Shown: positions 15,016-18,045 of the stretch, piece by piece
Numbering within the stretch: position 1 is the stretch's first letter
How the letters are laid out: every line of letters begins with the position of its first letter
From: Verrucomicrobiia bacterium
GTDB taxonomy: Bacteria > Verrucomicrobiota > Verrucomicrobiia > Verrucomicrobiales > DEV007
Assembly: GCA_030425385.1 (NCBI GenBank)
Contig: JAUIAH010000027.1
Coordinates: forward strand, 1 to 64,000
Reading direction: 5' to 3'
DNA length: 64,000 bases
Notes under the pieces: model-generated
Told to the model about the DNA's origin: nothing
The model's input: only the letters and a program-made list of their open reading frames with translations
Database searches by the model: none
Made by a program: the position numbers and the translations under genes

Positions 15016-15657
15016 TTACCCGATAGCGCCCAGTCTCCTACGACGATGTGTCCACCAAATGATGAACACAGCCACTATCGATCCTATCAGATTGGCGACG
15101 AGATCCCAACCTGTGTTCACGTAGCCGCCAACATTGGTTTCGGCGATGAGGAGCGTTGCCACAAACTCGATGACTTCGTTCAATGCGCCGAATCCCATGC
15201 CGGCGGCGGCGCACAACGTCATCAAGCCGAGTGACGGCTCGGCGGGCTGGCGAAAGCGGCGGACGATCCCAGCACTCAGTCCCTGCCAACATAGCCAGCT
15301 GGTGATGCCGAACCCGTAGGCATGCACCACCTGGTCATACTTCAACCGCTCCGGGATGAGCCACCAACTATAGAGGACGCGAATTTCTCCTTCGGCAGGC
15401 CAGGTGTCCGGAAGCGGAACCAATCCGCCAGCCATGTGGAGTAGGCCCCACACCGCCAAGCACCATAGGAGACCAGCACTGAGTCCTACGGAGCGGTGCA
15501 CCCAGAAGATGGATCCTCCTAACACGACCATCACTGCAATATAGAACGCAAACTCTCGGTTCCCAGCGATGACGGCAGCAACGCAGGCCGTTAGCACGTA
15601 TGTCAGGACAAACCCGACCACGGCAACGACCTGCTTTGGCGATGCTGTATGGTCCAT
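15016..15657 (-). CDS. YjdF/DUF2238-type integral membrane protein
   Basis: The product is 213 residues with about six membrane helices. The family signature is clear in YDQVVHAYGFGITSWLCWQG, in GMGFGALNEVIEFVATLLI and in GGYVNTGWDLVANLIGSI. The conserved His, Glu and Asp residues lie in or near membrane helices, suggesting a metal or ion role, but the function of this family is unknown. It is convergent with the GH62 gene (4 bp between stops). Confidence 0.82.
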   Translation of the reverse strand: MDHTASPKQVVAVVGFVLTYVLTACVAAVIAGNREFAFYIAVMVVLGGSIFWVHRSVGLSAGLLWCLAVWGLLHMAGGLVPLPDTWPAEGEIRVLYSWWLIPERLKYDQVVHAYGFGITSWLCWQGLSAGIVRRFRQPAEPSLGLMTLCAAAGMGFGALNEVIEFVATLLIAETNVGGYVNTGWDLVANLIGSIVAVFIIWWTHRRRRLGAIG

Positions 15658-15744: not shown

Positions 15745-16332
15745 TCACTTGGCTAAACGCACCATCACCTCGTTGCGCCGGAGCGCAGGGATGGTGAATG
15801 GTGGGTCATAGCTTGCACGCTCGATCTCACCGACCGTCTGCAGGCCTTGTCCCTTGGCCCAAGCCATCAATTTCGCGCTCGCGGCCTTCTCATTCGCCTC
15901 GGTCCATCGACCACTATAGCGATAAACGGCGAACCGCCCGCCCGGCCTCTCACTAATCTGAACCTCGTCGTTATCCGCCTTCGGTGCCCCTTCCCTGGCG
16001 ACCTCTTTAGGGACCACAAAGCTCATCATCGCTTCGCCATCTTCCTGGGGGCTATTGAAGACGGGAGTCGTCATTTCGATCTTCTGCTTCGCCTCATTCT
16101 TGCCGTCGATGTAACGGAACAACTTCATGAAGGCTGTATTCGTCTTACCAGAACCGTCGCTCATCGCGACCGACGCGACCACCATCTTGGGGTAGTCACG
16201 CACTTCAAATGCTCCGTCACGTTTCACCACCAAGTAGCTTGGCGTCTCGTAGTCGTCGCGGTCTGCGAGAGCTACCGGAGAAGCGCTGAGAGTGACGGCG
16301 ATCGCTGGGGTCAGCATGGGACGTAGAGTCAT
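15745..16332 (-). CDS. SOUL-type heme-binding family protein, exported
   Basis: The product is 195 residues with a signal peptide (MLTPAIAVTLSASPVALA). The SOUL/HBP domain runs over about 30-190: YLVVKRDGAFEVRDYPKMVVA, AFMKLFRYIDGKNEAKQKIEM, TTPVF and PPFTIPALRRNEVMVRL are typical. Eukaryotic members bind tetrapyrroles; bacterial ones are poorly studied. The ATG at 16332 was chosen because it starts directly before the signal peptide, with AGGAG somewhat far upstream. It lies downstream of the fasciclin gene on the same strand, separated by a strong terminator. Confidence 0.85.
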   Translation of the reverse strand: MTLRPMLTPAIAVTLSASPVALADRDDYETPSYLVVKRDGAFEVRDYPKMVVASVAMSDGSGKTNTAFMKLFRYIDGKNEAKQKIEMTTPVFNSPQEDGEAMMSFVVPKEVAREGAPKADNDEVQISERPGGRFAVYRYSGRWTEANEKAASAKLMAWAKGQGLQTVGEIERASYDPPFTIPALRRNEVMVRLAK

Positions 16333-16370: not shown

Positions 16371-16406
16371 AAGTGGCGGTGGCCACACAACATGCCACCG
16401 CCACTT
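16371..16406 (-). terminator. Intrinsic terminator of the fasciclin gene
   Basis: A perfect 13-bp stem, AAGTGGCGGTGGC (16371-16383) against GCCACCGCCACTT (16394-16406), lies just downstream of the minus-strand fasciclin stop. In the direction of transcription it is followed by a T-rich run (TTATTTATTTAA). Confidence 0.9.
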
Positions 16407-16423: not shown

Positions 16424-16930
16424 TTAGGAGGTGGGGAGGATCACCGTGTCGATGACATGGATGACTCCATTCGTTCCCGCGATATCTGTCTTAACGACCT
16501 TGGCTCCATTGACAGTCACGTTCCCATCGGCGACCGCAATCTTGACGGACTCGCCTGCGAGCGTGTCGACGTCACCAGGCTTCACGTCAGCAGCCATCAC
16601 TTTGGCTCCGACCACGTGGAGCTTGAGAATCTTCGTGAGCTTGTCCTTGTTCTCTGGCTTCAAGAGAGACTCGACGGTGCCTTCTGGAAGCTTCTCGAAA
16701 GCGTCGTTGGTGGGCGCGAAGATGGTGAAGGGACCGTCGCCACTGAGAGCTTCGGCAAGACCGGCCGCCTTCACTGCGGCAACCAGCGTGCTGAAAGAAT
16801 CGTTGGAAGCGGCGATTTCGACCACGTTCTTCGCGTCGGCTTTCTTCTTGTGGTCATCGGCGATCGCAAGAGGCGCCGCAATGAGTGTGGTGACGGTGGT
16901 AGCAGTGATGAGGAGGTTACGGATGTTCAT
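16424..16930 (-). CDS. Exported fasciclin-domain protein
   Basis: The product is 168 residues: a signal peptide ([20 protein letters not shown]) and one FAS1 domain at about 35-167. The two conserved FAS1 blocks are [17 protein letters not shown] (H1) and [12 protein letters not shown] (H2). FAS1 proteins are secreted adhesion or envelope proteins. The gene is divergent from a CarH-type B12 photoreceptor gene with a 170-bp regulatory region between them, so light-dependent expression is plausible. A strong terminator follows. Confidence 0.92.
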
Positions 16931-16989
16931 GGTTCTGATTTCTAAGTTTCTTGGTTGGTGACAGCTGCTCAGCGTCGTTGCCGTTCGCT

Positions 16990-17080
16990 GTCTAGGTAGT
17001 GTCTACGTATGAAACGCTACCGTGTCAACAATTTGTCTAAATAAATTTCCCAAGATGAATCTCCTATTGTCAGAAGTCTA
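16990..17080 (-). promoter_or_regulatory. Promoter and GTCTA/TAGAC repeat cluster, candidate CarH operator
   Basis: The minus strand has TTGACA (17022-17027), then 17 bp, then TAGACA as -10 (16999-17004), a good sigma70 promoter for the fasciclin gene. Four GTCTA copies (TAGAC on minus) start at 16990, 17001, 17035 and 17076. The first two are exactly 11 bp apart and one forms the -10 element. CarH-type repressors bind direct repeats spaced 11 bp that overlap promoters. Binding here is an inference from spacing and neighbourhood. Confidence 0.55.
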
Positions 17081-17100
17081 GGTTTTGTATAGGTTTAGGC

Positions 17101-18045
17101 ATGGCCGCGTTCCGATACCCGATGAAATACGTCGTGCAGCAGACTGGGCTCAGTCCCCACGTCCTGCGCGTCTGGGAACGTCGCTATGGTGCTGTGCACC
17201 CCGAACGTTCCGAGACCAATCGACGTCTCTACACCGATGAAGAGGTGCGGCGTCTTGAGCTCCTGGCATCCTTATCTCAATCGGGGCACGGCATCAGCCA
17301 GATCGCCACTCTCTCGACTGACCAATTGGCAGAAATGGCAAACCGAGAGGAGGCGGCGCCACCTTCCCAATCCGGTCCTGAGAAGGCAAATGACTTAGAT
17401 CCTGCCGCCGAATTCCTCGCGCTTGCCTGGACGCATGTGTTGGGATTAGAGCCCTCCAAGTTACAGGACGTCCTGGAAGATGCCACTGTCGCCATGGGAA
17501 CAACTAGTGCCCTGGAGAGCTTGGTCATTCCCCTCCTCAACCGCATTGGCGCGGCGTGGGATACTGGAGAGATTTCCCCTGCCGAGGAGCACGCGGCCAG
17601 TGCCGTCATCAAGGAGATGATCTTTCTCGGTAGCCGCCCCTTCACGGAATCGGCAGGTGCTCCTAACATAATTGCGACCACTCCTGCGGGTCAACTGCAC
17701 GAGCTTGGTGCCGCCATGATCACCGCTGCGGCTCGAAGGCTAGGGTGGAATGTCACCTACCTCGGGCCTTCATTGCCCGCTGAGGAAATTGCAAGGGCGG
17801 CCATTCGCAGTGAGGCCATCGCGGTGGCTTTGAGCGTGGTCTACCCCAGTGATGACCCTCAGTTGCCCGATGAACTTCGGCGCTTGCGGAAACACCTCCC
17901 CGAAGGCATGCCCATCCTCATCGGTGGCCGCGCGGCCCATGCTTACCTTGACGTGATCAAGCACATTGGAGCAACGTTCCTCACCGATATCCCAAGCTTT
18001 AAAGGAGAACTCGCGCACATCCGAGAGCGGCGTTCCCCATCATAG
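17101..18045 (+). CDS. CarH/LitR-type MerR regulator with B12-binding photoreceptor domain
   Basis: The product is 314 residues. Residues 1-75 form a MerR-type winged helix (MKYVVQQTGLSPHVLRVWERRYG). Residues 105-180 form a four-helix bundle containing W153-x9-E163-H164, the motif that contacts adenosylcobalamin in CarH photoreceptors. Residues 185-300 form a B12-binding Rossmann domain with H200-x2-G as likely lower axial ligand, ALSVV and IGGRA. In CarH, B12-bound tetramers repress in the dark and light splits them. All key residues are present, so light sensing is likely. No carotenoid genes lie in the window; the divergent fasciclin gene is the obvious target candidate. Confidence 0.88.
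   Translation: MAAFRYPMKYVVQQTGLSPHVLRVWERRYGAVHPERSETNRRLYTDEEVRRLELLASLSQSGHGISQIATLSTDQLAEMANREEAAPPSQSGPEKANDLDPAAEFLALAWTHVLGLEPSKLQDVLEDATVAMGTTSALESLVIPLLNRIGAAWDTGEISPAEEHAASAVIKEMIFLGSRPFTESAGAPNIIATTPAGQLHELGAAMITAAARRLGWNVTYLGPSLPAEEIARAAIRSEAIAVALSVVYPSDDPQLPDELRRLRKHLPEGMPILIGGRAAHAYLDVIKHIGATFLTDIPSFKGELAHIRERRSPS

Follow-up and report, generated by a model that had tools for sequence, protein, structure and literature searches.

What does a B12-dependent photoreceptor of the CarH type control when the genes beside it are not those of carotenoid synthesis? The question is raised by a regulator gene from a Verrucomicrobiia bacterium (assembly GCA_030425385.1), found in a 64,000-nucleotide stretch of contig JAUIAH010000027.1 (the window), which lies back to back with genes for a fasciclin-domain (FAS1) protein and a SOUL heme-binding-type protein. 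The answer that we favour, with a probability of roughly three in four, is that an adenosylcobalamin (AdoCbl)-dependent repressor of the CarH type switches the divergent FAS1 (SOUL) unit and is released by light, in the service of photo-oxidative defence at the cell envelope. It draws on the computed domain make-up of the regulator, its B12- and adenosyl-contacting residues, operator sites that are nearly unique in the assembly, and a conserved synteny.

The regulator gene (17101..18045, + strand) encodes 314 amino acids, in which Pfam places, all above cut-offs, a MerR_1 domain, a B12-binding_2 four-helix bundle and a B12-binding Rossmann domain (PF02310, residues 189-280, 50.4 bits), in that order. 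The top PDB sequence matches are Thermus LitR (E 1.6e-25) and Thermus CarH (E 2e-25), and an AlphaFold2 model (seven sequences as input, mean pLDDT 83) proved, on re-alignment of 1000 Foldseek matches, to be closest to Thermus thermophilus CarH (TtCarH) among the chains compared. The B12 domains of the model superimpose on those of TtCarH with Z of about 21-22 and an rmsd of 2.5-2.8 across about 195 residues; residues 3-306 against full-length 5c8d give Z 21.9 and an rmsd of 13.4, the domains being placed differently. The motif W153-x9-E163-H164 and H200, at the position of the lower Co-ligand His in the Rossmann domain, were both found in the protein as originally predicted, and the agreement of Pfam domains, PDB sequence matches and fold bears out the CarH-type identity proposed with them. 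Equivalents of W131, E141 and H177 (TtCarH numbering) are kept in all 43 aligned homologs, and that of H142 in 42 of the 43. The nearest named homologs, among the matches listed, are Verrucomicrobiota records.

Domain order, fold, the W-x9-EH motif and the Co-ligand His are shared with the class I CarH/LitR protein of T. thermophilus. By its domains, its motif and its predicted operator, then, the regulator is of the known CarH/class I LitR kind, and we infer that it binds AdoCbl. Its score against the NCBIfam CarH equivalog model NF052513 (117.6 bits) falls below the cut-off of 400, which makes it a relative, and no equivalog, of the modelled CarH. Linked carotenoid genes, the mark of a CarH carotenoid switch, are absent; FAS1 and SOUL are the linked genes here, in contrast to the carotenoid genes of Thermus. 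A class II LitR identity was considered as well and is ruled out by the presence of the B12 Rossmann domain (PF02310): class II LitR proteins lack one of the two B12 domains, use a LOV partner and bind sites of the form TGTACA-N12-TGTACA (PMC9758184).

One residue sets the regulator apart from TtCarH. The upper light-state ligand, His132, is replaced by Asp (Asp154 in the regulator), and among the 43 aligned homologs the position is occupied by R in 11, E in 9, H in 8, Q in 7 and others in 8, so that 35 are without His132. We do not treat this residue as class-defining, because variation at the position has been published for other B12 photoreceptors (PMC11796333). With Asp there, the light state would need a route without bis-His ligation. 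The H132A variant of TtCarH is mostly tetrameric still in light, even if earlier work had described its disassembly (PMC10442372), whereas CtMerR, which has Arg at 132, does respond to light (PMC11796333). Taken together, these cases suggest that the regulator likely responds to light and that the last step must differ. A light response in a family that mostly lacks His132 would show bis-His ligation to be dispensable for a CarH-type switch. The replacement, with His132 kept in just 8 of 43 homologs, also invites a reading in which the regulator binds its repeats and represses fasciclin with no light switch at all, sensing the AdoCbl supply or redox state, or acting independently of B12 like Myxococcus CarA, which binds its operator without B12 (PMC9304148, PMC8156234). 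We consider this unlikely: the regulator keeps the residues that hold adenosylcobalamin (Trp, Glu and the lower His), CtMerR responds to light with Arg132 at a position that varies among photoreceptors (PMC11796333), and the photolyase and crtI-like genes that adjoin carH in some relatives suggest light.

The 170-bp intergenic region between the regulator gene (carH) and the fasciclin gene contains the predicted operator. TnnACA occurs on the fasciclin strand with its T at 17091, 17039, 17028, 17005 and 16994 (+ coordinates), and four of these make two exact 11-bp pairs (17039/17028 and 17005/16994), the successive steps being 11, 23 and 11. Pair A, TAGACA-N5-TTGACA (17023..17039, - strand), has as its second repeat the candidate -35 hexamer of the fasciclin promoter; pair B, TAGACA-N5-TAGACA (16989..17005, - strand), has its repeats at 64 and 75 bp before the start of the fasciclin gene. 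Together the pairs lie 64-109 bp from that start and are oriented in the fasciclin sense. A degenerate pair, TATACA-N5-TAGACT (17075..17091, - strand), stands 10 bp ahead of the start of carH and is a candidate autoregulation site; TAGACA is found 17-31 bp from carH in several relatives. The original prediction had placed GTCTA copies at 16990, 17001, 17035 and 17076, all of which are present on the + strand; the last of them is TAGACT when read on the fasciclin strand and repeats the TATACA at 17091 imperfectly, at a distance of 11 bp.

The published consensus for CarH operators is a tandem array of 11-bp repeats, nnnnTnnACAn (or nAnnTnnACAn), and in Thermus one CarH repeat covers the -35 element (PMC9304148, PMC8156234). 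The longer form, nAnnTnnACAn, is matched here by TACGTAGACAC and TACCTAGACAG. The likeness to Thermus thus extends to 11-bp TnnACA direct repeats, one of them on the -35 (PMC9304148), with the difference that the Thermus repeats are three and contiguous while the strict repeats here form two pairs at a 23-bp step; three strict contiguous repeats are absent from the window operator. Four repeats are also found in the CarH operators of Bacillus megaterium and Cystobacter fuscus, and C. fuscus CarH dimers require two tandem repeats (PMC9304148). What differs from these systems is that the repeats here form two pairs, with a step between them that is not constant across the group, and that the linked genes are other ones.

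The elements of the proposed fasciclin promoter are where they had been claimed, TTGACA (17028-17023, - strand), a spacer of 17 and TAGACA (17005-17000, - strand), and form a sigma-70-like candidate (17000..17028, - strand) with a weak second hexamer, which a consensus promoter scan did not report. The claim of an 11-bp direct-repeat operator over this promoter held as well, with two TnnACA pairs and the -35 TTGACA itself one of the repeats. The accompanying claim that TAGACA is the -10 box had to be given up, since the distance between TTGACA and the TAGACA pair changes across fasciclin-linked loci: the step measures 23 in both the window and G040, 17 in G249 (locus L069), 18 in G288 (L073), 9 in L169 and 7 in L161. 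Such variation points to pair B as a predicted binding site whose position floats relative to the promoter, and not as a conserved -10.

Promoters of the classical MerR type have spacers of 19-20. Activation of that type, in which a protein bound to a palindrome twists a long-spacer promoter, might be entertained for any regulator with a MerR-family DNA-binding domain such as this one, but here the spacer is 17 and the operator is made of direct repeats with no palindrome; it is hard to credit, the least probable of the readings that we weighed. We favour the CarH-like repressor. In the dark, the AdoCbl-bound regulator would oligomerise and occupy the paired 11-bp TnnACA repeats, covering the fasciclin promoter at its -35 and in its downstream part so that RNA polymerase would be blocked. 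Light (UV, blue or green) would break the Co-C bond and undo the oligomer, freeing the promoter. FAS1, and SOUL too given read-through, would then be made in the light as a defence against photo-oxidative stress at the envelope. Dark repression of FAS1, lifted in light, is well supported as a prediction from the operator and the protein, and the regulator probably controls its own gene in addition.

How far the operator is shared was judged from 80 upstream regions, comprising the window and 79 of the 80 homolog loci listed (one was dropped for its short flank), these loci being 80 of 207 confirmed relatives. An 11-bp TnnACA pair in the sense of the divergent gene occurs in 58 of the 80 regions listed (shuffle mean 0.6), a count inflated, like the others across homologs, by relatedness. 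Among spacings 7-33 the value 11 is the peak, every other spacing being found in at most 16 of the 80 regions, and the commonest hexamer repeated at 11 bp is TAGACA (22 of 80; shuffle mean 0.0). Even allowing for relatedness, one sharp spacing would be hard to obtain otherwise. Chains of at least three strict repeats are present in 8 of the 80 regions and at least two separate chains in 35; for the 24 chain-to-chain steps below 45 bp, 19 is the commonest value (six cases) and 7-12 accounts for nine cases. The strict pair is missing from 22 of the 80 regions; FAS1-linked loci without it are L127 (G341), L177, L188 and G037:C88, and TAGACA recurs instead at steps of 53 and 19 in G341/L127 and of 65 and 65 in G037:C88.

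Eleven relatives selected for their carH homologs contain 15 exact TAGACA-N5-TAGACA sites against 5 control matches, and 11 of the 15 are no more than about 120 bp away from the start of a carH gene. Within this set the exact pair is missing from G253 and G341, and in G003 and G144 it occurs away from carH only. Of the four sites off carH, two precede frames that look ECF-like (L123) and ArsR-like (L124) by inspection, one falls within a frame (L125), and one sits right where a frame opens and may precede the actual start of that frame (L126); no common theme was seen among these neighbours.

Could the repeats serve carH autoregulation alone, with fasciclin a bystander? Repeat pairs do occur upstream of homologs without FAS1, and a carH-proximal pair exists. 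Against this, pairs A and B lie at the distances from the fasciclin start given above and include its -35 candidate, pairs run in the sense of the divergent gene (only 8 of the 80 regions listed have an 11-bp TnnACA pair in the carH sense), and FAS1 adjacency recurs over the tree. We therefore hold autoregulation alone to be very improbable and retain fasciclin as a target.

Within the assembly (8,006,327 bases in 74 contigs, 95.5% complete), TAGACA-N5-TAGACA has a single exact copy, which is pair B. Allowing up to one mismatch gives 7 sites, 2 of them in this intergenic region, while a reversed-pattern control gives 16; the operator repeats are not a chance occurrence, the exact pair being unique in the assembly and two of seven near-matches local. 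The other five near-matches comprise four within long reading frames and one (L120) inside a 91-aa frame that may well not be real and that precedes a frame judged ECF-like by inspection. The pattern TNGACA-N5-TNGACA occurs at nine sites: two here, six within reading frames and one intergenic (L210). One form of the strict three-repeat pattern was searched in the assembly and had 0 matches.

The assembly has one regulator of the CarH type, one Cob_adeno_trans family match and, at its 95.5% completeness, one gene matching PF02469 (FAS1). A photolyase gene, a second photolyase-like gene and two SQS_PSY genes are on other contigs, and no TnnACA pair was present around these four loci in 41 kb read. 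A wide light regulon in this genome was accordingly rejected, there being no pairs in the 41 kb around the photolyase and SQS_PSY loci and the remaining sites falling mostly within frames; to judge from the distribution of sites, the B12 switch looks local.

The fasciclin gene (16424..16930, - strand) encodes 168 amino acids with a single FAS1 domain (PF02469, Pfam 2.1e-40) and, by inspection, an N-terminal export signal. It faces away from the regulator gene and is followed on its own strand by the SOUL gene (15745..16332, - strand; Pfam SOUL 1.2e-43 for the longer frame), whose start was taken as ATG 16332 in preference to GTG 16404 and whose product begins with a stretch resembling an export signal (by inspection). 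The predicted target of the repressor is a divergent unit of exported proteins, FAS1 and then probably SOUL. Between the two genes lies a 13-bp, GC-rich hairpin followed by UUAUUUAUUU (16371..16406, - strand; MFE -27.3, fold z -2.9). A terminator scan detects its core, the same scan expecting 2.5 such sites in shuffles, and we describe the hairpin as terminator-like or attenuating. At the equivalent gap, G239 and G288 have hairpins of other sequence without a T-run (z -4.2 and -7.7). Hairpins in this place imply that SOUL may run at a lower level or from a separate promoter of its own. The suggestion that SOUL shares the control of fasciclin is thus upheld by the place of SOUL in a conserved neighbourhood and tempered by the terminator-like hairpin that stands between the two; coupling to the fasciclin promoter is plausible, with read-through. 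A gene for a DUF2238 membrane protein (15016-15657, - strand) follows SOUL on that strand after 87-88 bp and may or may not be part of the FAS1-SOUL unit.

The neighbourhood recurs in relatives. FAS1 is divergent to carH in G040, G009, G037:C88, G249, G341, G239 and G288; SOUL follows FAS1 in G040, G249, G239 and G288 and is present without FAS1 in G253; and photolyase follows SOUL in G239, G288 and G253, giving the order fas-soul-photolyase in G239 and G288, two close relatives by regulator sequence. In a second set that overlaps the first (for example L127/G341 and L129/G249, so that counts are not summed), comprising the 80 loci listed and the window, 15 of 81 rows have FAS1 divergent within 700 bp, one of them (L128) as a 105-aa frame; by title L188 is from Proteobacteria, L205 from an unclassified bacterium and the others from Verrucomicrobiota. 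In 19 of the 81 rows the divergent strand carries a crtI-like gene within 3 kb (all four crtI-like genes scanned are above the phytoene desaturase family cut-off), and 47 rows have neither neighbour. On a tree of the 81 rows listed, the FAS1 label is clustered (none of 500 shuffles scored as low) and requires at least nine changes, at least six of them forced by well-supported branches, from which the FAS1-carH pairing appears to have been repeatedly gained or lost. Conserved synteny and phylogenetic footprinting make the link between regulator and FAS1 firmer than a single sequence could. That the linked target is not a carotenoid gene, as first supposed, agrees with the adjacency of FAS1 and SOUL to carH and with the recurrence of FAS1 in relatives.

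What FAS1 and SOUL might do in the light is suggested by other systems. The singlet-oxygen RpoE-ChrR regulon of Rhodobacter sphaeroides, in the regulon table of PMC7074977, includes a fasciclin (RSP_1409) and the photolyase phrA, both induced in photo-oxidative stress; its sensor is an ECF sigma/anti-sigma pair, in contrast to the B12 repressor here. In Pseudomonas putida and P. mendocina, class II LitR proteins place a photolyase and other non-carotenoid genes under light control (PMC9758184); a search of that text for fasciclin gave no match. The Azospirillum brasilense fasciclin under RpoE-ChrR has reported roles in photo-oxidative stress and flocculation (work cited in PMC10949492). Light control of the cell surface through an adhesion-type FAS1 protein had been the original proposal, and light-controlled adhesion or flocculation, with FAS1 as a surface adhesin, is compatible with the repressor mechanism set out above. 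The FAS1 domain (Pfam) and the export signal (by inspection) suit such a purpose, as does the flocculation reportedly mediated by the Azospirillum protein, and this part of the proposal retains some merit. It is nonetheless rather unlikely as the purpose of the switch: a title cited in PMC10949492 ties the same Azospirillum fasciclin to photo-oxidative stress, RSP_1409 stands in the singlet-oxygen regulon table (PMC7074977), and SOUL adjoins FAS1, as photolyase does too in some relatives. The SOUL and photolyase neighbours and the alphaproteobacterial fasciclins of RpoE-ChrR photo-oxidative responses make photoprotection our first choice, and photo-oxidative protection is a likelier role for FAS1 than adhesion. 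For the SOUL protein we infer porphyrin scavenging.

A broader proposal, offered tentatively as possible rather than probable, is that in Verrucomicrobiota and a few other lineages FAS1-SOUL(-photolyase) stands beside carotenoids as the second regular output of B12 photoreceptors. A His132-less CarH would be released by light from a split 2+2 operator, exported FAS1 and a porphyrin-binding SOUL would neutralise photosensitising porphyrins at the envelope, and photolyase would repair DNA. The kind of regulator is known; in the literature searched, outside which most subscription papers fell, we found nothing linking fasciclin or SOUL with CarH or LitR, nothing joining Verrucomicrobia with CarH and photoreceptor, and nothing joining SOUL, fasciclin, photolyase and light. 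If the proposal is right, B12 light sensing extends past pigments to an exported FAS1 family, and there is a direct, promoter-level route to the roles of bacterial FAS1 and SOUL proteins in light.

Several further features of the homolog loci were observed. CIA30-domain proteins, another possible light-linked exported family, adjoin carH homologs in L066, L081, L084, L087 and L168, and in L087 CIA30 is fused to FAS1. G249 has two carH copies, L069 (G249:C187), with Arg in place of the EH-motif His, and L068 (G249:C56), beside which the FAS1-like frame is short, at about 105 aa. In other genomes of this family (L018-L030) there is a different MerR protein (for example L019:1429-2496 and L027:1474-2466, both + strand), with 43-56% identity to the regulator over the DNA-binding domain only. 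The three that were scanned match MerR models and have a C-terminal part without a Pfam family, and several of the frames share a C-x-C-P stretch towards their end. Of these 13 loci, 11 have an ECF sigma gene nearby and 3 have crtI; upstream, a TAGACA/TAGACA pair is present in 3 of 13 and a divergent-sense TnnACA pair of any kind in 6 of 13. These proteins possibly represent a swap of sensor on a common operator code.
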